Below are positions 1,532 to 29,660 of a stretch of DNA of 64,000 bases, piece by piece. The notes beneath the pieces are model-generated. The model saw only the letters and a list, made by a program, of their open reading frames with translations, was not told the origin of the DNA and searched no databases. Every line of letters starts with the position of its first letter. Position 1 is the first letter of the stretch. Source of the DNA: Bacillota bacterium (GTDB taxonomy: Bacteria > Bacillota > Desulfitobacteriia > Desulfitobacteriales > JAJXUE01); NCBI GenBank assembly GCA_021783135.1, contig JAJXUE010000008.1:1-64000 (forward strand). The letters are read 5' to 3'. The translations under genes and the position numbers were made by a program.

Positions 1532-4033
1532 TTAGCTGGAAACTACATTCATTTGAAGTCGAATCCTACGAGCAATGTCATCGGCCAGGTCTTTGTCGTT
1601 CTTGCCACGACCATTAATTTGGATTGTAATGTTGTTAACCTGATTCTTACCTTTACCTCCTGTGGCACCTTGAGTCAGCTTGTCCAGATTGAGAATGTCC
1701 GACAGCTTGTTAAGTGGCAATACAGCTTCTGAACCGGACTCGCCAACACCAATCGTTTGCGGACTGTTGAAGATACCGCCTTTGGCGTACCAATCAACGC
1801 CTACTTTCGGCATAGATGGCGGGTTCAAACTAAAGCTGCCACTAATTTTTAAGTGGGGTAATTTGATCGCATTCATCAGCGATTTGATACCATTAGCAAA
1901 ATTGGTCATTAGATTTTTGCCCGCATTAAACAAGTCATCCGCACTACTACCGAAGATGCCGAGAATGTCATTGATGACGTTTGTAACGGCAGTTTTCAAA
2001 TCAGTCCAAATAGCACCCCAGTTGCCATGCAGAATATCACCAAATACTTTAAAGATTCCTTGGATGATAGCAAGTTGAGCACTAATATAACCGCTAATAA
2101 CTTCCCAGATGGCGTTCCCCACAGTTTTAATGCCATTCCAGAAACTATTCCACTCACTGCTTAAACTGGACTTGAAACTATGCCAAGATGTATTAATCCC
2201 TGCCCAAAAGTCATCCCACGTTTTAGAGATGCCTTTGCAAAGGTTGACGATGTCCTGCCACAAACCCTTAAAGCAACCAACGACAGCAAGGATAACAGCG
2301 TTAACGCCGTCTCGGAACGTTTGGGAGTGTTGGTACAACTCATAAAGTGCTACTCCCAGCAGTACTAGACCGGCGATGATGAGAATAATTGGGTTAGCCA
2401 TAAGGAACTCAGTGAACACGCTAAAGGCTTTACCGATGCCACTAATTCCCTTGACTACGATACCGCCTACAGTTTTAAAAGCACCACCGACTTGAGTAAT
2501 TGCACCGCTGATTTTTGACATGCTCTTGAAACCTTCCGCTAAGTTGCCAATATTCTTTAACGCTACACCCATCATTTGCAGGGAAGAAATAAAGGAAGCA
2601 AGCTTACCGATAACAAGCGTGGCAATGCCACCAATCGCTGCGACACGGACTATTAAGGTCTTCGTACTTGGACTTAGCTTATTGAACCAGGCGAGTAGGC
2701 CGGAAGCAGAAGTCATTAATTGTGAGGCGACAGGAATTAGGCCCACGCCAATTTGAGTTTTCAAATTATCGTACTGGTTGCTTAATTTCTGGGCTTGCCC
2801 AGCAGCATTATCCATTTTGCCATTTGCTAAATCCTGTGCTTCACCGTGTTTGGTAATCTGAGCACTCAAGTTCTTAACATCAGTAGAACTGGCATCTACG
2901 ATGGCATTCATACCCGAAAGGGCATACTGACCAAAGATAGTTTTTAACGCTGCTTCCTTTTGAGCGATAGAAAGACCTTTTAACTTGTCAGACAAAATAG
3001 CTTGAATCTCGCCAAAACTTTTGATCTTGCCAGTGGATTGGTCGAACAAAAGACTGTTCTTACCGACCCCAATACCTAAGGTATTCAGTTCCTTAGAAGC
3101 AGCAGCGGTAGGGGCGGTGAGGTTGGTTAACATACGTCTTAAAGTTGTACCTGCTTGGTTAGCCTTGATGCCGTGCTCACCTAACAAAGCAACTGCGGTG
3201 GACACGTCAGTGATGCTCATTCCCATTGCAGAGGCTTGCGGACCGACATATTTAAGTGCTCCTAGGAAGTCGGTCATCGACATCCGGGCATTATGCATAG
3301 CACCTGAGATTGCGTCGGCAACACCGCCCATCTGGTCCTTGACGTTACTGCCAAACTCGTCTTTAAGTTCGCCACCCATTTCATGGATGATGTCGCTGAC
3401 AGTATTTGTTGTAGAACTTAGGTTAGAGTCAGTTGCTTTGGCAAGGTCTTGGATGCTGTTCATAGCACCGCCCATGATGTCTTTGTAGTTGATACCCTGG
3501 CGTGCCAGGACGTACATGCCTTCAGAAAGTTGGTTGGAAGTAAAGTAGCCTTTGTTGGATAAATCCATCGCTTTCTGACCGAGGGCTTCGATTTGCTGCC
3601 CAGAAAGTTTAGCACCGTTAGTGATTTGCGAGTTTAACGTAACCCCAATTTTCTTGACGGTTTGATCGAAGGTCATACCCTGTCCGGTTGCACCTTCGAA
3701 GAAGCTTGTCGCAGCCATACCGGCATTGGTGAAACGAGCACCGATATCCTGCAGGGCGGCAATACCGGCCATGTGCGTGAACTCATCACTTAGACCTCTG
3801 GCTGCACCGGTGCTCGCCTCGGCGACATTTCCAACTTCAGCAATTGCCTCAGACGCACCACGCGTATTGGCCTCAGCACTGATATTACTGATGGTTTCAC
3901 CGAGCGTCCTAGCTTCGGTGTTAGCAGAGCTAAATGCAGACATTATATTACGAGCCAACGCTTCAAAAATGGGGGAAGCCTTGTCATTAGCAGTAATGAC
4001 TAAGCCTAATTGTGCATTAACATTAGCTGCCAA
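1532..4033 (-). CDS. Phage tail tape measure protein (TP901 type)
   Basis: 833 aa; FDQTVKKIGVTLNSQ, LLGEHGIKANQAGTTLRRMLTNLTAPT motifs; hydrophobic central segments; C-terminal GVGESGSEAVLPLNKL. Confidence 0.95.
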   Translation of the reverse strand: MAANVNAQLGLVITANDKASPIFEALARNIMSAFSSANTEARTLGETISNISAEANTRGASEAIAEVGNVAEASTGAARGLSDEFTHMAGIAALQDIGARFTNAGMAATSFFEGATGQGMTFDQTVKKIGVTLNSQITNGAKLSGQQIEALGQKAMDLSNKGYFTSNQLSEGMYVLARQGINYKDIMGGAMNSIQDLAKATDSNLSSTTNTVSDIIHEMGGELKDEFGSNVKDQMGGVADAISGAMHNARMSMTDFLGALKYVGPQASAMGMSITDVSTAVALLGEHGIKANQAGTTLRRMLTNLTAPTAAASKELNTLGIGVGKNSLLFDQSTGKIKSFGEIQAILSDKLKGLSIAQKEAALKTIFGQYALSGMNAIVDASSTDVKNLSAQITKHGEAQDLANGKMDNAAGQAQKLSNQYDNLKTQIGVGLIPVASQLMTSASGLLAWFNKLSPSTKTLIVRVAAIGGIATLVIGKLASFISSLQMMGVALKNIGNLAEGFKSMSKISGAITQVGGAFKTVGGIVVKGISGIGKAFSVFTEFLMANPIILIIAGLVLLGVALYELYQHSQTFRDGVNAVILAVVGCFKGLWQDIVNLCKGISKTWDDFWAGINTSWHSFKSSLSSEWNSFWNGIKTVGNAIWEVISGYISAQLAIIQGIFKVFGDILHGNWGAIWTDLKTAVTNVINDILGIFGSSADDLFNAGKNLMTNFANGIKSLMNAIKLPHLKISGSFSLNPPSMPKVGVDWYAKGGIFNSPQTIGVGESGSEAVLPLNKLSDILNLDKLTQGATGGKGKNQVNNITIQINGRGKNDKDLADDIARRIRLQMNVVSS

Positions 4034-4599: not shown

Positions 4600-5514
4600 T
4601 TAATAACTGGCAACGCTATTTTTCAAAGAGATGGTGGCAATACCAGCGTCTGTGACGTTATATACAGTCGAGAATTCAAGATCAACGCGAACGAACTCTT
4701 GCGATGTGTCGATTGTAGCTTTGTCAATGTGAGCAGCACTGAATGAAAATTCCAGTGAATGGTTGGCATCTTGGCTTAGAATAAAATCAAGGGTTTGTAA
4801 ACCGCTGCCGAGCAGAGCTAACTCAGCTTCGTCCTCGACATCAAACGTAAATTTACCCGTCATATCGATGCGACCACTGGAAAATTTATTGGGCGATTGG
4901 GAATTGTTTGCACCGTAGAGCAGCTTCACTTCACGCTTGATATCAATTTCCCCGCCCACCATGTTGGTATTGGAAGCTCCCCCAATCTTCAGCGAGGAAC
5001 CCCAACCCATGAAGGCATTTATTGGGGAGAAGGAGGGAGTCGTGGTCGCAACCGGAGCACCTTTGATGCCATCAAACTTACCAGTGGCGGTGACAACACT
5101 TTCCGTATCAAACTTCAGGCTTAGTTCACTTAACACAGAACCGGCGTAAGCATGTTCGGCAATACCGTTGAAGTAGGAAAGGGTCAGGGAAGGGGCCAGG
5201 GCGTTTACGACTTGAAACTTGTGAACATATGGGGCTGAACCGGTGACAACGTCTTGACCCATGATTGCTTTTAGCAAGTACCCGATGGCATCCGGGTAGC
5301 AATCGAACTCCACATCGAACGTGCTGGAAGTCACACCGTCATACACGGCGAAGGTCTTGGATAGATTAGCACGTCTACCCTCATCTGCAATTTTCTTAAT
5401 CTCGTCCTGGGGTTTAGCAGAACTAACAGGCAGCCAAAAGCTAGGAACAACAGCGGTTCCATACGCAGTTTCGTAGGCTAGTCCAAGGTGTTGTAAGGCA
5501 GATAGTTTGGACAT
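4600..5514 (-). CDS. Major tail (tube) protein
   Basis: 304 aa; position after neck genes and before tail chaperone. Confidence 0.8.
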   Translation of the reverse strand: MSKLSALQHLGLAYETAYGTAVVPSFWLPVSSAKPQDEIKKIADEGRRANLSKTFAVYDGVTSSTFDVEFDCYPDAIGYLLKAIMGQDVVTGSAPYVHKFQVVNALAPSLTLSYFNGIAEHAYAGSVLSELSLKFDTESVVTATGKFDGIKGAPVATTTPSFSPINAFMGWGSSLKIGGASNTNMVGGEIDIKREVKLLYGANNSQSPNKFSSGRIDMTGKFTFDVEDEAELALLGSGLQTLDFILSQDANHSLEFSFSAAHIDKATIDTSQEFVRVDLEFSTVYNVTDAGIATISLKNSVASY

Positions 5515-10549: not shown

Positions 10550-12034
10550 CTAACCTTCATCTGTGTTCAAATCCTTGCCCTGAAAGAGTGAATCATTTTT
10601 CGGAGTGGGGGAACCATGCACTCCGTTTTTCCCCTTTTGGGCATCCGTTTTTTGGTCTTCCGGCAGATCACTTGAAGTGTCTGGTTTATTCGGTGAGTTT
10701 TGCTGACCAAAATCCTGGGCAGTAGGAACTTTACCTACGCCAGCAATTGGCCCAAACTTAGCTTGCATATAGGCACGGTAACCGGTTAGGGTTAGATCTC
10801 CGGGTGACATACCTAATCCAGCATCAACGGGGAGGGGGAGGTAGCCTTGCTCGGCTCTAGCTTCATTAACCGTCAAGGTGTCATCTTGGAGCATGATTTG
10901 TTGCACGACCGCAAGTGCCTTTTTGTCCGTCGCGGAAGTAGTGAACTTAAACTTGAACTCAGCTACCTCGTAGATGCCGTATTGACGCAGGAAGTAATCA
11001 TTAATTGAGTTCTCAATCATAGTGGCAATCGGACGAATCGCGGACTCATCGGTGGTGTCGTCCATTTGATCACCGGTACTTCGATTAACTCCGGTAACTA
11101 CACCGAATTTCTGAACGTCAATGCCAAAGGCATTAGCGATTACTTTAATTAGTTGATCTTGCCACTGGATAAATAAACTTTGGTCGGAATCAGCACCAAG
11201 TTCGATTGATGTCGGGGCTTTCGTACCACCTAAGATTGGGAGAGTGCCACGACCCTCGACTTCATCACGCCAATACATCCGAACTTCCTTGACGAACTCA
11301 GGGTCAGCATCTTCGCCTAGATGCAGCAATTTCTTTGGATGAGCCTGGGAAGCAACGTTCCCGGCATAACCCATCGCTGCGAGCAGGTATTCGATCTCCT
11401 GATTTGCCACAGCCATAGGGGGAAGGCCAAAGGGGTCGGAAGTTCGGGGGTCGTACTTGATTACGAATAGTTCTCCCGGTAAGAAATCAACTCTATCGCC
11501 TTGAAGCGACCACTGGGCGTACTTCCTTTGTTGAGGCGAACCATTCCAATCAAGATAAACTTGGAAGGAAGCTGCATCCGAAGGAAACAACAACATCGGA
11601 TGGTCAGGATGCTCGCTCCAATTTTTGACTACAGTCGTAGACCAACCGCACACAAGCATGTCCTCTACCCAACGCTCAAGCATCGATTTCCAAGTATCCT
11701 CACCGTTAGGGGATTGGAAAACACTGTTGAGTGAATCGATTACTTTCTTTTGCTTCGCGGTAGCTTTCACGCCTTGTTTGACAACAACTCCACATTCCAG
11801 ACGCGATACTTGGGACTTGATATACCGGATAGCACGTCTAGGAATCGGTGTTTCCGACAGCTTCCGCAATCTTTGGTAATTCATTTCCGGTTTATCTTGC
11901 GGCATACCCGCATTAGAAATGAAACCACCCCAGAAGTAGGGGTGAGAGAAACCCTTTTGTGGGGGGATTCGACCAAGCATAGCGTCAGCAGCAGCACGAA
12001 GGCGTTGGGACAAGGTCATTCTTTCCTGACTCAA
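10550..12034 (-). CDS. Phage portal protein
   Basis: ORF 10550-12100; likely TTG start at 12034 after a GGGGG-rich RBS; FGLPPMAVANQEIEYLLAAMGYAGNVASQ, ANAFGIDVQKFGVVTGVNRSTGDQM. Confidence 0.9.
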   Translation of the reverse strand: MSQERMTLSQRLRAAADAMLGRIPPQKGFSHPYFWGGFISNAGMPQDKPEMNYQRLRKLSETPIPRRAIRYIKSQVSRLECGVVVKQGVKATAKQKKVIDSLNSVFQSPNGEDTWKSMLERWVEDMLVCGWSTTVVKNWSEHPDHPMLLFPSDAASFQVYLDWNGSPQQRKYAQWSLQGDRVDFLPGELFVIKYDPRTSDPFGLPPMAVANQEIEYLLAAMGYAGNVASQAHPKKLLHLGEDADPEFVKEVRMYWRDEVEGRGTLPILGGTKAPTSIELGADSDQSLFIQWQDQLIKVIANAFGIDVQKFGVVTGVNRSTGDQMDDTTDESAIRPIATMIENSINDYFLRQYGIYEVAEFKFKFTTSATDKKALAVVQQIMLQDDTLTVNEARAEQGYLPLPVDAGLGMSPGDLTLTGYRAYMQAKFGPIAGVGKVPTAQDFGQQNSPNKPDTSSDLPEDQKTDAQKGKNGVHGSPTPKNDSLFQGKDLNTDEG

Positions 12035-12050
12035 ATACTCGCCCCCTTTT

Positions 12051-13706
12051 CTATAATCTTGCAATAACACCGTGACCAGACTTCTTGCGATCTGTTTCAA
12101 TAATTTGAGCCAAGCAATCTAAAATGTCGTCATGCTTGACCTTCGGGAAGTAGGTTAATTGCTCAATCAAATCCATCTGGGTGGGGTGGAAACGGACATA
12201 ACCGTTAGTGACCATCGGTTCGAGGGATTTAATTCGGACTTCTTTCTTAACCGTGGATTTGAACTCTTTAACATTCAGGTAGATCCCGGCCATTGCACTT
12301 CGTTTGCGAACTTCATCCGCGAAGAACTGTTGGAACTGAACGGCTTCAATGGCGACCCACTTGAACGTGAAAGACGTAGTTTTACGGAATAAGTCTTCCA
12401 TGATGGCATCGGGAGCACGTTTCTTGTTGTCAACATTCAGGACATAAAAAATACCCGTCTTGCTTTTCCCCACAACGAGGATTGCCGACGGGTCTGAGCG
12501 TTTTGTTTCCTTTAAGCTAGGGTCTACACCACCGAGAATTTCTAGCTCCTCGATATCGAACTCATCAACGTTGTAGAAGGTGTATGACTTAAAGACTTGA
12601 GTTTCAACATCCACAGGATCATTTTGCAACTCGGTACTAAACGCATACGGGTTTGTGGCCCTTTGTTTCATAATTTCAAGCAATGGCATCCGTTCCGGCC
12701 ACAACACTCTAGCACCTGCCTCCATTGCAGCTTCATGTGCTGTGTAGAAGGTTTGTGCTTTATGGCCAGCGATACGTGCTGCATCGGCAGGAGTGTCGCC
12801 TTCATCTCGGCTGTGGTAAATACGCTGCCATTCGTCCCACAGGTGCATGTTGGTCGGATATTCAAGCAGGGCGGGATAAACTTTGGCTTCCCAATCGGGT
12901 CGCTTATTAATCAGTGTTGCTAGTAGGGATTGGTAATGTAGTATGGTTCCGACCATGATGTAGCAGGATCGCTTCGGATCACCCAGGTTCGTTACTGTTT
13001 GGTCAAACCAGGTTAGCGTCTTAGTAATTTGCTCTGGCGTACTAACATTATCCGGGCCTTCAAGGTCATCGCACAACACGTTAGGGCGTTGGGCTAAGTG
13101 ACGTAACCCACGCAAGGCTTCGCCGGAACCGGCAGCTTGCACCTTACAACCATTGGCAGTAACGATTTCTAACTGATTCCACGTCCGAGTCGTAAGGTCG
13201 CCGAAGTCATTTTTGATGCGTTCGTTTTCTTCGAAGGTGTTCTTGACTACGGCAAGTTGTTGGGCTGCGGTAGCTTGTTTATCGCCGAGCAGAATCCAGT
13301 AATACCGCTGGATGTCCTCGATGTAGCAGACAACCCACACTAAAAAGATGTTTGAGGCAAAGGTTGACTTGGAGTGGGAACGAGCAGCAGCGATAGCGGT
13401 TTTGGAGCCCCACTCGTTAACGGCTATATCGCGTAACATTCCTGTCAGTTCCCAGTGGAAGGGAGGGTTTGGGGTATGGTCTTGCAACAAATCTTGTGGG
13501 CCAGAACCGGAGAAGTAGTTCTTAGCGAACGTCATAATATCTTGATAACCAGCTTCAATCCGTTGTAGCTTAGCGTAGTCGGAGAGAGCGGCATGGTATT
13601 TAAGCATGTCATCCCTGCCGAGTGATCCGGCCTGTTCTAGTTGCTCATACAGGCTAACCTTTTGTTCTAGCAGTTGGATCGCTGCTAGACGTTCCGCAGA
13701 TTTCAT
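12051..13706 (-). CDS. Terminase large subunit
   Basis: 551 aa; ILLGDKQATAAQQ, NVLCDDLEGPDNVSTPEQ (Walker B-like), nuclease-type GGVDPSLKETKRSDPSAILVV and DDILDCLAQ. Confidence 0.93.
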   Translation of the reverse strand: MKSAERLAAIQLLEQKVSLYEQLEQAGSLGRDDMLKYHAALSDYAKLQRIEAGYQDIMTFAKNYFSGSGPQDLLQDHTPNPPFHWELTGMLRDIAVNEWGSKTAIAAARSHSKSTFASNIFLVWVVCYIEDIQRYYWILLGDKQATAAQQLAVVKNTFEENERIKNDFGDLTTRTWNQLEIVTANGCKVQAAGSGEALRGLRHLAQRPNVLCDDLEGPDNVSTPEQITKTLTWFDQTVTNLGDPKRSCYIMVGTILHYQSLLATLINKRPDWEAKVYPALLEYPTNMHLWDEWQRIYHSRDEGDTPADAARIAGHKAQTFYTAHEAAMEAGARVLWPERMPLLEIMKQRATNPYAFSTELQNDPVDVETQVFKSYTFYNVDEFDIEELEILGGVDPSLKETKRSDPSAILVVGKSKTGIFYVLNVDNKKRAPDAIMEDLFRKTTSFTFKWVAIEAVQFQQFFADEVRKRSAMAGIYLNVKEFKSTVKKEVRIKSLEPMVTNGYVRFHPTQMDLIEQLTYFPKVKHDDILDCLAQIIETDRKKSGHGVIARL

Positions 13707-14191
13707 GCATCGTCACTTCGCTTCGTAGTTAACTCAGCATCGATGATTTGTTCTGGCAACGCTTTTGGCGTATCACCAGCCAGTTTGCCAACCTTGCGTT
13801 TTAATTCCAGAATCTCAGCTTTTAAAGCATCTTCAGTCAGCGATTCAGCTTTCGCAGTAACTTCTAAACTGCCACTGACTTCTTTACGGTCAATCAATTT
13901 ACCCCGGTTTTTCAACACTAGCTCTGCAGCACGCGTATTGCCGTTTCTTACTTGTTTTCTCAGGCTTGCGTACAACTCAGGTACGAAGGCATCCTGAGCG
14001 AGTTCGGCATAGTGATTAAGCAGTTCGATGAAGTCGGGATCTGTTTTCCAACGGTACAAAGTGCGTTCGGAACAAGCACATTCCCTGGCGATATCGGCAT
14101 CGCTCAGTCCGTTGGCATCTTTATTAGCAAGCAACTGTGCTGCCAAAACCTTTTCGTCACTGAATCCCTCGGTGCTGAACCTTTCTGCCAT
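13703..14191 (-). CDS. Terminase small subunit (HTH type)
   Basis: SDADIARECACSERTLYRWKTDPDFIELLN helix-turn-helix; overlaps terL start by 4 nt. Confidence 0.8.
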   Translation of the reverse strand: MAERFSTEGFSDEKVLAAQLLANKDANGLSDADIARECACSERTLYRWKTDPDFIELLNHYAELAQDAFVPELYASLRKQVRNGNTRAAELVLKNRGKLIDRKEVSGSLEVTAKAESLTEDALKAEILELKRKVGKLAGDTPKALPEQIIDAELTTKRSDDA

Positions 14192-20316: not shown

Positions 20317-21045
20317 ATGAAAAGCTATACTTTAATTGAATTGCAAGAGATTTCTACACGGGTTGAAGAAGGTAAAAGTTGTGTTTGTTCCAACCAAAAA
20401 ACGTATAAATCTCTGGATTTAACCTCCATTTGTCCTAAGCTACTGGCAGGAGATCCTTGTAAATACTGCTATGTTCAAACTAGTAGGGAAGAAGGGTTTA
20501 ACGCAAAAATCGTATATGGACGTATTACCTACAATGGCGAGATTTCCAGAATGAACCAAGCCACAATAACTAAGTTAAATGAATGTGGCGGTTTGAGAGT
20601 ATTTTCCTTCGCTGATTACTACTCTTGGATGGATGATGATCTTGAAAAAATTGTTGCAGACGCTAAAAAACGTGGTTTAAAGTTAAAGGCTATTACCAAA
20701 CAAGCCCAATTCGTTCATAAATTTTGGAAGGATTTTGATGTGATCCACGTATCAGTTGACAATATTGGCGATGGAATGGCCTGGGAAACAGCGAAAAACT
20801 TACGCGAGATGTATCCAACCGTATTAGTCCGATCTGTCATCACTAAGGACGAAGACATTCAAGCCTTGGCATGGACGGACATTTTAACACTAAATCATGG
20901 AAACAACGGCTTCAAAAATTACTCTAAGAAGAACAACGACCAATTGAGCCAAGTATTTCCGGGTAAAGTATGCTGCTCAACAGGAAAATGCCAAACCTGC
21001 AAAGTAAAATGTGGATTGACAAAAGTTGGTGATAAAAATATTTAA
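20317..21045 (+). CDS. Phage radical-SAM-like protein
   Basis: RBS ggaggaag; CPKLLAGDPCKYCYVQ (C-x8-C-x2-C) and C-terminal CCSTGKCQTCKVKCG cysteine cluster. Confidence 0.7.
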   Translation: MKSYTLIELQEISTRVEEGKSCVCSNQKTYKSLDLTSICPKLLAGDPCKYCYVQTSREEGFNAKIVYGRITYNGEISRMNQATITKLNECGGLRVFSFADYYSWMDDDLEKIVADAKKRGLKLKAITKQAQFVHKFWKDFDVIHVSVDNIGDGMAWETAKNLREMYPTVLVRSVITKDEDIQALAWTDILTLNHGNNGFKNYSKKNNDQLSQVFPGKVCCSTGKCQTCKVKCGLTKVGDKNI

Positions 21046-22939: not shown

Positions 22940-23170
22940 ATGAATATGAAAAGATTAAATGAACAGTACTCCAAGCTCGTACTAAACGCGGCTGAAAAGA
23001 ATTGGGACAATAACAAGGACAAAATGCTAAAACGGGGCATTGATAAGAACTCTTACATGCTTGGTTACCTCCATGGATGGGAAGCGTGTTTCAGCACGTA
23101 TGACTTAGACCATGAGGGATTGGAGGATAATCAACATGGTGTTAGAGAAAACGAACCTACAGATCATTGA
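22940..23170 (+). CDS. Small phage protein
   Basis: RBS gggagac; ATG at 22940; overlaps start of the tyrosine recombinase. Confidence 0.6.
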   Translation: MNMKRLNEQYSKLVLNAAEKNWDNNKDKMLKRGIDKNSYMLGYLHGWEACFSTYDLDHEGLEDNQHGVRENEPTDH

Positions 23171-24023
23171 TGATTTTCTCAGCACGAAGAAATCCGAGCA
23201 GACAAAAAAAGTGTATAGAGTGGAGTTACAGAAATTCGCTAACTTTGTGAACAAGTCCTTTGATGAAGTTACGAATTGGGATATTATAGATTTCAATAAA
23301 GTGTTGATGGCTAACAGCAAGTCAGACGCAACACGACAACGCATTTATTCGACCATCCGCTCACTTTATACTTGGCTAGTTAAAATGCACGTTATCTCAG
23401 CCGAGCAAAACCCGACAAATGGCACGATTGAAAAGCTAACGCCACATGTAGACCTGGAAAACAAATTTTTAACTGTGAAGGAAGTTGAAGCCTTTAAAGA
23501 GAAGGCAAAACCGAATGCACGTAATTACGCCATGGTAGCAGTTTTAGCCACTACAGGCTTACGGATTAGTGAAGCTCTAGGAATCAACTGGAATGACATT
23601 GTTTATCTGGAAACACCTGAAGGTTCTGGGTGGTTCGCCAGCGTTACCCGCAAAGGGGGAAAGAAGCAAAACATTTTCCTGCCAGATGGAACGTATGAAG
23701 CACTTATGCGGTTGCGGAGAAACATTCCCATCAACCCGAAAGATGATTCACCGGTATTTACTTCTCTGTTCGCTGGGCAACACAAACGGATTACAGCAAC
23801 CGGAGCAAGAAAAACGTTGGAGCAAATAGCCAAAGCTGCCGGAATTGAAAAGGAGTTCACACCGCATTGGTTTCGCCACACCTTCGTTAGTCAGTGCATT
23901 GCTGCTGGGGCCAATCCGAGGGATGTGCAATGGCAAGCAGGACATAGTTCTTTCCGCACGACTGAGCGTTACCTACATGCAATGAGCAAAGGGGTAGGCA
24001 AGTTCTTTCCGGTGAAATTCTAA
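23136..24023 (+). CDS. Tyrosine recombinase (XerC/D-like)
   Basis: R-K-HxxR-H-Y residues: TGLRISEA, TRKGGK, HWFRHTF, AGHSSFRTTERYLH. Confidence 0.93.
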   Translation: MVLEKTNLQIIDDFLSTKKSEQTKKVYRVELQKFANFVNKSFDEVTNWDIIDFNKVLMANSKSDATRQRIYSTIRSLYTWLVKMHVISAEQNPTNGTIEKLTPHVDLENKFLTVKEVEAFKEKAKPNARNYAMVAVLATTGLRISEALGINWNDIVYLETPEGSGWFASVTRKGGKKQNIFLPDGTYEALMRLRRNIPINPKDDSPVFTSLFAGQHKRITATGARKTLEQIAKAAGIEKEFTPHWFRHTFVSQCIAAGANPRDVQWQAGHSSFRTTERYLHAMSKGVGKFFPVKF

Positions 24024-26319: not shown

Positions 26320-26475
26320 ATGGAACAGCACGAACAGAATTTCCACCCTGTAGAATTTGTATCGTCTTCTGGACACAAAGTAATAATACCGAACGACCCA
26401 TCGCCCCAAGCGTGTGAACGATTTGTCAGAGTTTTGATGGACATAAAAGCTAAGAACGGCATTACGAATAACTAG
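26320..26475 (+). CDS. Small (51 aa) protein upstream of the serine recombinase
   Basis: ATG at 26320 preceded by ggaggggtttt; MEQHEQNFHPVEFVSSSGHKVIIPNDPSPQACERFVRVLMDIKAKNGITNN. Confidence 0.65.
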   Translation: MEQHEQNFHPVEFVSSSGHKVIIPNDPSPQACERFVRVLMDIKAKNGITNN

Positions 26476-26585
26476 TAAGGATTGGGCAAGTTGGTATTCC
26501 AGCTTGTCCTTTTCCATGCTATAATTAGGATACAACAGCATGTGGTGTCTACAAATGATACCGAATACTTATCAGAGGTGAAGAT

Positions 26586-28088
26586 ATGTCTCATGACTAT
26601 GATATAAGGACTGTAGCCTTGTATCTGCGTAAATCACGGGGGCAGAACAATGAGGAAATTGACGATTTAGCACAACACAGGGCAGAACTAATAGCCATGT
26701 GTGAGGAGCGAGGATGGGCATACACCGAATACGCTGAAATAGGTACAGGCGATAAGATAAATGTCCGTCCTAAAATGCTGGAACTGCTGCAGGATGTTGA
26801 GCAACAAATGTATGACGCTGTTGTAGCAGTCCACTTCGACCGACTCAGCCGTGGTGACGAGTCTGACCAAGCTCGAATTAAGAAAACGTTTGCCATGACT
26901 GAAACATTATTTGTCACTATTACCAGGGTGTACGATTACAACAATGACCAAGATATTATGATGGCTGACTTTGAAGGAATGATGGCAAGGTTGGAATATA
27001 AGACCATTGCCAGGCGTTTTCGACAAGGTAAGGCTCGCCGAGCGAAGCAAGGATTTTGGTCGAACGGCACGCCACCCTTTCCCTACGTATTCGACCGTGA
27101 AACAGGTAAGGCCAAACCTGACGAAGCAAATCTGTTGGTTTATAGGCGAATGATCGATCTGTGCTTAAACGGTTACGCTGCTACGGATATAGCTTGGGAA
27201 TTGAATAAGGAAGGTATACCTAGCCCACGGGGTCAGTTGTGGAGTCCAGCGGTTGTAAGGCGGTTATTGATGGATGAAGTACATCTTGGACGCTTAGTAG
27301 TTGGCAAGAAACGCAAGCTGGTCGGAGCGGATGCAATTGTCCGTAAGCCTAAAGATGAGTGGATTGTTTATTATAACTGCCATCAGGCTGTTAAAACTGA
27401 ACAGGAGCACAACAAAATTCTTTTCTTAATACAGCGGCAAAAAGAAACGCCACCAGCAGCTAGAGCAGGTTCTAGCCAATTCAGTGGATTAATCAGATGT
27501 GGTATCTGTGGTCACACAATGCAGATTCAAAAGCGAAGTGACCGCCCGTCGGATCTTTTGAAAAGCTGTACACATCGTGACCATTTCGGCGTGCGTTGCC
27601 CAAACCTCGGGGGAGCCATAATTGACATAGCTATTTCGGTCAAAGAGGCAATCCTAGCCAAGCAAGAGCAATTGGAAGCGGCAATTCGAAGTGGTATTCA
27701 GTTGGAGGATATCCGAGTTATCTTGGAATTGTCAGAGCAGAAATTAGCCGAAATGAAACAGTATGATTCAATGCTTTCCAAGCTGGAAGATGCCTTCTTC
27801 GCTGAAAAGATAAGTGAAGAACGTTATATGTTAAAGAAGGCAGAGTACGAAACAAGAATTCATGCCCTGGAAGAAGAGTACAAAATCATTCAAAAACAAG
27901 CAGACAATACCCAAAATGCTAGAAACGAGGATATGCTGGATTCCGTCAAAAAGGTTCTTGCGGTTATTAATAGTAAAGACATTGAACCCAAAGATATCAA
28001 TCGGGCCTACAAAAGTATCATCCACTCAATTGAGTGGGAACGCGATGATTTTGACGACTGTGGAGCCATGAAGGTAAATTTTCTATAG
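26586..28088 (+). CDS. Large serine recombinase (prophage integrase)
   Basis: N-terminal resolvase domain with YLRKSRG catalytic Ser, DRLSRG; zinc ribbon CGICGHTMQ...CTHRDHFGVRCPN; coiled-coil. Confidence 0.95.
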   Translation: MSHDYDIRTVALYLRKSRGQNNEEIDDLAQHRAELIAMCEERGWAYTEYAEIGTGDKINVRPKMLELLQDVEQQMYDAVVAVHFDRLSRGDESDQARIKKTFAMTETLFVTITRVYDYNNDQDIMMADFEGMMARLEYKTIARRFRQGKARRAKQGFWSNGTPPFPYVFDRETGKAKPDEANLLVYRRMIDLCLNGYAATDIAWELNKEGIPSPRGQLWSPAVVRRLLMDEVHLGRLVVGKKRKLVGADAIVRKPKDEWIVYYNCHQAVKTEQEHNKILFLIQRQKETPPAARAGSSQFSGLIRCGICGHTMQIQKRSDRPSDLLKSCTHRDHFGVRCPNLGGAIIDIAISVKEAILAKQEQLEAAIRSGIQLEDIRVILELSEQKLAEMKQYDSMLSKLEDAFFAEKISEERYMLKKAEYETRIHALEEEYKIIQKQADNTQNARNEDMLDSVKKVLAVINSKDIEPKDINRAYKSIIHSIEWERDDFDDCGAMKVNFL

Positions 28089-28139
28089 GGGTCTAACACG
28101 TCAAAAGGACTTTAGGAGCCTTGCCGGTCACGGTATCGT

Positions 28140-28493
28140 TTGGAAACACCGGATGGAAGCGTGATCATCCCGGTTAGCCGCGTGGCGTGTGGCTTCGCAG
28201 CCGGGGGGTCAGAATTTGATACCGGGGCAGCGTCGCCTAAAGACCAAAATGATACCGGTCTTCCCTTTGGCGGGGGGAGCGGGGCCGGTGTGTCAGTGCA
28301 ACCAGTAGGTTTTTTGGTAGTAGGCAATGATCAAGTGCGGTTATTGCCGGTCGACAGCAATGTAGTTTTCGATCGGGTAATCGATGCTGTTCCCGGTATT
28401 ATTGACAAAGTTACGCAGATGCTAAAAAAAGATGGTCATGCCGAAAAGTCTTGTCAAGACAAACCAACGGTCAAATTAGAACCAGAAGATTAG
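28140..28493 (+). pseudogene. ytfJ: 3' part of sporulation protein YtfJ/GerW, interrupted by the prophage
   Basis: ETPDGSVIIPVSRVACGFAAGGSEFDTGAA...LPFGGGSGAGVSVQPVGFLVV matches YtfJ; the conserved N-terminus is missing; in-frame TAG at 28113-28115. Confidence 0.9.
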
Positions 28494-28619: not shown

Positions 28620-28946
28620 ATGGAATTGCAACAACGTCTCACGCGGTGTTTGGCACAGTTGAACTTACCGGAAGATGAGCGGGCTTATCTGGCGGCCAAT
28701 CTGCTTACCATTATCGACGCAAGAGTCCAAGCGTTGCAGCAGACCATTGCTAAGGCGCAAGAGAATAGCATGAACTTTGCCAAACAGTACTCTATGGAAT
28801 TTTGTCAGGTTCAACAACCACTCCTAGCTAAAAGCGTGCCGCAAACAGATTTCATCAACTGGTGCTTTTGGGAAAAGGTAATTGCCAATCGCCTGGCGTT
28901 GGTTGCCAGGTATGAGAGACTGCGCCGAACTCATATAGATACTTAA
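28620..28946 (+). CDS. Hypothetical helical protein
   Basis: 108 aa, RBS ggagg. Confidence 0.65.
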   Translation: MELQQRLTRCLAQLNLPEDERAYLAANLLTIIDARVQALQQTIAKAQENSMNFAKQYSMEFCQVQQPLLAKSVPQTDFINWCFWEKVIANRLALVARYERLRRTHIDT

Positions 28947-29072: not shown

Positions 29073-29660
29073 TTGGTCAATGCAGTATGGCTTTTTTTGT
29101 TGGTAACCGGAATCATGACCGCGGCCATCAGCGGGCGGATTGATATAGTCACCACCTCAGCGATGGAAGCAGCTAAAATAGGTGTCGAAACAGCCATTGG
29201 TTTAGTCGGTGTGATGAGCCTGTGGTTAGGCTTGATGCGTCTGGCCGAAGCAGCTGGGATGGTCCGAGCGTTAGCCCGCGTTGTACAGCCTTTTACACGC
29301 TGGTTGTTCCCCTCTGTTCCTAAGGAGCATCCAGCTCTGGGAGCAATAATTTTAAACATCAGCGCCAATATACTCGGGCTTGGCAATGCGGCGACCCCTT
29401 TTGGTTTAAAAGCGATGGAGGAACTGCAGAAGCTTAACGCGGGCAAAGATGAGGCGAGTGAAGCCATGTGCACCTTCTTAGCCCTTAACACCTCAGCCAT
29501 TACTTTAATACCTGCTACAATTATTGGAGTTAGAGTTAAGGCTGGGTCTGCTAATCCGTCGGAAATAATCGGCACAACTATCTTTGCCACTAGTTGCGCG
29601 ATGCTTGTCGCCATTACAGCTGATTTCCTCTTCCGACGGGCAGGAGGAACCAGGCGATGA
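29073..29660 (+). CDS. spmA: Spore maturation protein A
   Basis: Nucleoside-recognition Gate family motifs GNAATPFGLKAMEELQKLN; adjacent spmB. Confidence 0.95.
   Translation: MVNAVWLFLLVTGIMTAAISGRIDIVTTSAMEAAKIGVETAIGLVGVMSLWLGLMRLAEAAGMVRALARVVQPFTRWLFPSVPKEHPALGAIILNISANILGLGNAATPFGLKAMEELQKLNAGKDEASEAMCTFLALNTSAITLIPATIIGVRVKAGSANPSEIIGTTIFATSCAMLVAITADFLFRRAGGTRR

Follow-up and report, generated by a model that had tools for sequence, protein, structure and literature searches.

The window, a 64,000-nucleotide stretch of DNA from a Bacillota bacterium, carries a series of tailed-phage genes, a large serine recombinase gene and, directly after it, the 3′ part of the sporulation gene ytfJ (also called gerW) followed by host genes. 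The features of this arrangement are as follows.

1532–4033, minus strand: phage tail tape measure protein (PHROG 1533, E 7.5e-73)
4600–5514, minus strand: phage minor tail protein (PHROG 290, E 1e-34)
10550–12100, minus strand: phage portal protein (PHROG 12, E 2e-38)
12051–13706, minus strand: phage terminase large subunit (PHROG 38, E 2.2e-90)
13703–14191, minus strand: phage terminase small subunit (PHROG search)
26320–26475, plus strand: conserved 51-residue ORF directly upstream of the integrase, with a PS...C..F motif; candidate recombination directionality factor
26484–26509, plus strand: predicted intrinsic terminator (hairpin) between the small ORF and the integrase, with equivalents in L045, L074 and L077
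26586–28088, plus strand: large serine recombinase (integrase) of 500 residues (Pfam Resolvase, Recombinase and Zn_ribbon_recom; PHROG 95, integrase)
28132–28156, plus strand: attR, comprising the phage (P) arm, whose 25 nt run from GGT.. through the crossover GG
28155–28156, plus strand: inferred crossover dinucleotide GG in the Gly codon of TPDGSV, based on the centre of four attP palindromes and the restored Paenibacillus ytfJ frame
28157–28493, plus strand: host 3′ part of ytfJ/gerW (Pfam PF09579, E 5.5e-30 over 28143–28406)
28620–28946, plus strand: host ORF of unassigned function, with no Pfam match
29073–29660, plus strand: spmA (spore maturation protein A), host flank, order and similarity as in locus L033
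29657–30196, plus strand: spmB (spore maturation protein B), host flank, order and similarity as in locus L033

According to Pfam, a Resolvase catalytic domain comes first in the integrase and the Recombinase and zinc-ribbon domains come after it, which is the domain order of a large serine recombinase. The genes for tape measure, minor tail and portal proteins and for both terminase subunits lie to its left, and the integrase and the structural genes inspected are uninterrupted. Position 1 of the window is base 1 of contig C28, and the left end of the prophage is therefore cut off by the contig end. We judge, jointly with the account of its insertion given below, that the window probably contains the right-hand portion of the prophage of a temperate tailed phage. 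Two further genes were observed within it. One, at 23112–24023 (plus strand), encodes a tyrosine-type recombinase approximately 2.5 kb upstream of the serine integrase. The other, at 20317–21045 (plus strand), is a 242-residue ORF that has no Pfam match and contains a cysteine cluster resembling CxxxxCxYC, which hints at a radical-SAM protein.

The reading frame that follows the integrase matches the Pfam Spore_YtfJ model over positions 2–81 of 81 and retains all conserved YtfJ motifs, lacking only the approximately 32 N-terminal residues ahead of the region that Pfam covers. In-frame stops are located just upstream of the fragment, and the frame enters YtfJ at ETPDGSVIIPV. A sequence-only reading of this stretch had described exactly such a situation, in which a serine-recombinase prophage interrupts ytfJ, an in-frame stop lies just upstream of the remaining fragment and the N-terminal part is missing. 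All of this is borne out. The split copy is the sole YtfJ domain match in the 2.71-Mb genome (a draft of 67 contigs), and a search of 40 related genomes found a YtfJ match in 36, which is full length where loci were inspected. Thus, the split YtfJ is not a chance similarity.

The same reading had expected the N-terminal part at the other end of the prophage, and this is what the two Paenibacillus prophages described below show. For the window genome, searches by protein, family (DUF2953), DNA, tblastn and motif across the genome and most contig ends gave no match to the 5′ ytfJ piece or to the missing part of ytfI, and nothing elsewhere in the assembly matches YtfJ residues 1–30. Related genomes have the gene order scpA-scpB-ytfI-ytfJ. 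In the window genome, scpB is on contig C62, which stops 138 bases into ytfI. Because C28 starts within the prophage and C62 breaks off inside ytfI, we take the 5′ half of ytfJ to fall in an assembly gap rather than to be absent, and attL of the window prophage is placed there by inference. The expected order scpA-scpB-ytfI-[gap and prophage]-ytfJ′-spmA-spmB is otherwise intact.

Among 84,980 species genomes, the only close relatives of the window integrase (54–56% identical) are encoded by Paenibacillus barcinonensis CECT 7022 and Paenibacillus spiritus MER_111. In both species, a ytfJ 3′ fragment lies directly after the integrase gene at the same place, and the 5′ half of ytfJ, recognized by the pattern DVNTI[IV]G[DE], is located on the same contig. 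The elements measure 160,848 bp (P. barcinonensis) and 167,023 bp (P. spiritus) from core to core. When the host flanks are joined at the core, an uninterrupted YtfJ of 158 residues results in P. barcinonensis and one of 162 residues in P. spiritus. The target, both att sites and the reconstituted empty site are therefore seen in the two Paenibacillus genomes, and attR alone is seen in the window. An intact second copy of ytfJ, which would have told against the sequence-only reading, was found in none of the three hosts.

The two Paenibacillus phages have detectable homologues for only 55 of 282 ORFs, and their integrases are 76% identical, which argues that the shared site does not reflect one recent prophage encountered twice. 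Rather, ytfJ is a recurrent docking site, used by three divergent phages and at the same codon in the distantly related Paenibacillus viruses. A search of IMG/VR for further ytfJ 3′ parts returned the P. barcinonensis record only, and 34 IMG/VR matches to the 5′ ytfJ motif were dismissed as chance. The P. barcinonensis record fuses the ytfJ prophage with a second phage-like cluster (L065:1-12980), which follows the ytfJ 3′ fragment and includes tail-like genes and holin-like and amidase-like ORFs.

The position of the crossover was derived from four attP sites. Those of both Paenibacillus phages (rebuilt) and those carried uninterrupted by the phage contigs L045 and L048 are imperfect palindromes with GG at the centre, and this GG supplies codon positions 1 and 2 of the Gly in the TPDG sequence of ytfJ. 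The window phage arm, GGTATCGTTTGGAAACACCGGATGG, has the layout of the other phages to within one base, since the distance from GGT.. to GG is 25 nt in the window versus 24 nt in P. barcinonensis, P. spiritus and L045. Because of this agreement, the window crossover would be placed at 28155–28156, inside the apparent ytfJ, and not within about 28089–28150, where the earlier reading had sought the att core. The sequence ACACCGGATGG is present in both attL and attR of P. barcinonensis. By analogy, part of the apparent ytfJ sequence to the left of the window core is probably a phage arm that mimics ACACCGGATGG of the host site.

We propose that strand exchange occurs at the GG of this Gly codon, within the conserved TPDG[S/T]V motif. 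Integration would then leave a stub of about 35 residues at the 5′ end and, beyond the prophage, a 3′ ytfJ fragment that has no promoter, and excision, with the help of a directionality factor, would return the exact ytfJ reading frame.

In a maximum-likelihood tree, the window integrase forms one fully supported group with those of the two Paenibacillus phages, L045, L047, L048 and the partial L077. This clade is separate from SPbeta SprA and the staphylococcal SPbeta-like integrases, and by its integrase the window element does not fall among the SPbeta-like phages (Spbetavirus). No phage isolate has a close integrase, the best match being 31%. The IMG/VR contigs L047 and L048 encode integrases 48–50% identical to that of the window and, like the window, carry the same small upstream ORF, with a GG core in L048. 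Unlike the window element, L047 has its attR in a GntP-like permease gene, where its integrase is inserted (L047:11494-16074, minus strand). This indicates that target specificity has shifted at least once and that the clade is not tied to ytfJ. More distant integrases from the order of the window's host (L057, L058 and L059) lie beside a thioredoxin/DUF255-like gene, with a TCHWCHVM motif in the integrase-adjacent gene of L057 and L058. This gene is apparently another recurrent insertion neighbourhood.

An ORF of approximately 50 residues with the PS...C..F motif directly precedes the integrase gene in seven of seven clade members inspected, and strong hairpins occupy the equivalent spot between the two genes in L045, L074 and L077. 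The conserved position and the intervening terminator fit a directionality factor that is expressed apart from the integrase, and we therefore regard the 51-residue ORF as a candidate for this role. Family, PDB sequence and fold searches (predicted model pTM 0.42) gave no usable match for it, and no match was obtained to the solved structure in which SPbeta YokA is fused to YotN. In the proposed mechanism, the terminator apparently sets the integrase gene apart as a transcription unit by itself, and a factor expressed independently of it, perhaps the product of the 51-residue ORF, presumably controls excision.

The timing of ytfJ expression bears directly on how this insertion should be understood. 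The B. subtilis sigma-F consensus is GYATA-N15-GGNNANAHTR. Matches to it are found approximately 65–115 bases upstream of ytfJ in 29 of 29 intact loci from the order of the window's host. Of these, 14 are perfect and 15 have one mismatch, where shuffles of the set of 31 would yield 0.02 and 0.28, respectively, although the element overlaps the conserved end of ytfI and this overlap could inflate its conservation. In genome G001 (L032:13604-15213), MarR-like and epimerase-like genes lie between ytfI and ytfJ, and a remnant of the ytfI 3′ end is kept. A perfect match is still present in front of ytfJ in this genome. The motif scores 11/12 in P. barcinonensis and 10/12 in P. spiritus. On the strength of these promoter sequences, ytfJ is a sigma-F, forespore-type gene in the window's own order as well. 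This agrees with the earlier description of gerW as a forespore gene and with reports that in B. subtilis and B. megaterium its expression depends on sigma-F and is confined to the forespore (PMC4366231; also PMC3416734). Its loss has no effect on germination in either species, and the B. megaterium mutant sporulates normally (PMC4366231), such that the evidence for dispensability comes from two Bacillus species.

Several known elements resemble the one described here. SPbeta in spsM of B. subtilis is likewise a temperate phage that resides inside a sporulation gene and carries a large serine recombinase gene at its end. Its size (134 kb) is of a similar class to that of the Paenibacillus ytfJ elements (161–167 kb), and its excision restores the spsM frame (PMC4191935), just as joining the flanks restores ytfJ in Paenibacillus. 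However, its integrase, SprA/YokA, is only 26% identical to that of the window, and spsM excision is specific to the mother cell while the spore keeps the prophage (PMC4191935), whereas ytfJ is a sigma-F forespore target. The skin elements in sigK of B. subtilis and C. difficile also are serine-recombinase elements that split a sporulation gene in frame, but sigK encodes a mother-cell sigma factor (PMC5025042, PMC10747680), in contrast to the forespore gene ytfJ, which is dispensable in the Bacillus species tested (PMC4366231). The elements vfbin (spoVFB), vrin (spoVR), gin (gerE) and yin (yabG) similarly are serine-recombinase elements in sporulation genes (PMC10747680, PMC5595907, PMC4191935). 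They differ from the ytfJ element in that spoVFB and spoVR are expressed in the mother cell (PMC4191935), gerE acts there and yabG is controlled by SigK (PMC5595907, PMC10747680).

Descriptions of the published targets sigK, spsM, spoVFB, spoVR, gerE and yabG thus place the expression or action of every one in the mother cell (PMC4191935, PMC10747680, PMC5595907). A mother-cell target is a feature common to these published cases, though no formal criterion for an intervening element, and ytfJ does not share it. We found no mention of ytfJ/gerW as an integration site in the literature covered, which lies outside subscription journals. Because the mother cell is discarded, excision there costs a prophage nothing, and the recurrent use of a forespore target breaks this pattern. 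Mother-cell excision logic cannot serve ytfJ, given that it is a sigma-F gene; if the phage exits ytfJ, it is the spore's own chromosome that would be rearranged.

We consider it probable that the large serine recombinase encoded by the prophage inserted it at a conserved attB in ytfJ, and that this is a case of ordinary lysogeny in which a forespore gene is reversibly inactivated. The site is available to this phage lineage since the target sequence is strongly conserved across spore-formers and loss of the gene is tolerated, as is expected for a gene that is expressed only in the forespore under sigma-F and is dispensable in the Bacillus species tested. Tolerated inactivation is sufficient to explain the choice of site, because gerW loss produces no sporulation or germination phenotype in B. 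subtilis or B. megaterium. Two other explanations carry little weight. An erroneous assembly join between phage and ytfJ might be suspected in a 67-contig draft whose other junction is missing, but it is scarcely credible when two unrelated assemblies have the same junction at the same codon with a recognizable phage arm. It is also improbable that the prophage is defective and has lost the ability to excise, leaving ytfJ permanently inactive in the window strain. Although the left part of the element is unseen, its integrase and the structural genes examined are uninterrupted, the 3′ fragment keeps every conserved YtfJ motif, and relatives exist as free attP forms.

A more serious competitor is a programmed element that leaves the chromosome in the course of sporulation, either in the forespore or earlier, and thereby makes ytfJ whole by the time sigma-F acts. 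This would be a germ-line excision, unlike those of skin and SPbeta, and would produce spores with a reconstituted ytfJ in which the phage is episomal or lost. The insertion inside the coding sequence of a sporulation gene, the serine recombinase encoded beside the att site, the precise restoration of the frame, the presence of three divergent phages in one sporulation gene and the forespore-type promoter of the target are all consistent with this idea. So is the terminator that insulates the integrase from the small ORF, an arrangement that would suit control of excision by a separate factor, and sporulation-controlled directionality factors are known for SPbeta and the C. difficile skin element (PMC5595907). 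However, matches to sigma-F, sigma-G, sigma-E and sigma-K promoters before phage ORFs are not in excess over shuffles, and the regions upstream of the integrase genes show no consistent sporulation-sigma match, the sigma-K/E-like matches in P. spiritus being of doubtful weight. Furthermore, gerW loss is without phenotype in B. subtilis and B. megaterium (PMC4366231), and a prophage that left the forespore chromosome would forfeit its vertical inheritance. We therefore regard programmed excision as unlikely, if still deserving of attention. Less likely by far is its specific form in which the phage leaves the forespore-line chromosome so that sigma-F expresses an intact ytfJ, persists in the spore as a circular episome and re-integrates on germination. 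The earlier suggestion of a skin-like intervening element thus holds for the split gene, the clean reconstitution and the forespore target, while promoter scans show no tie to sporulation. The observation itself is confirmed, and its interpretation as an intervening element is partly supported.

A prophage within a gene is ordinary, whereas recurrent, frame-restoring insertion in a forespore gene is a new twist on the theme of intervening elements. If forespore excision proves true, the rearrangement would take place in the germ line, contrary to skin and SPbeta, whose logic is confined to the mother cell. In the culturable strain P. barcinonensis CECT 7022, the question can be put simply: does the phage get out before the spore forms, does it get out with the spore, or has a dispensable gene been sacrificed?

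As a separate observation, each of the two Paenibacillus ytfJ prophages has a gene for a sigma factor of the sigma-70 family (L066:3705-4343 and L125:13150-13791, both minus strand). The best NCBIfam matches of these factors include the sporulation sigma factors SigK, SigE and SigH, which score below the curated cut-offs, and the genes are relevant to phage-encoded sigma factors and dormancy.
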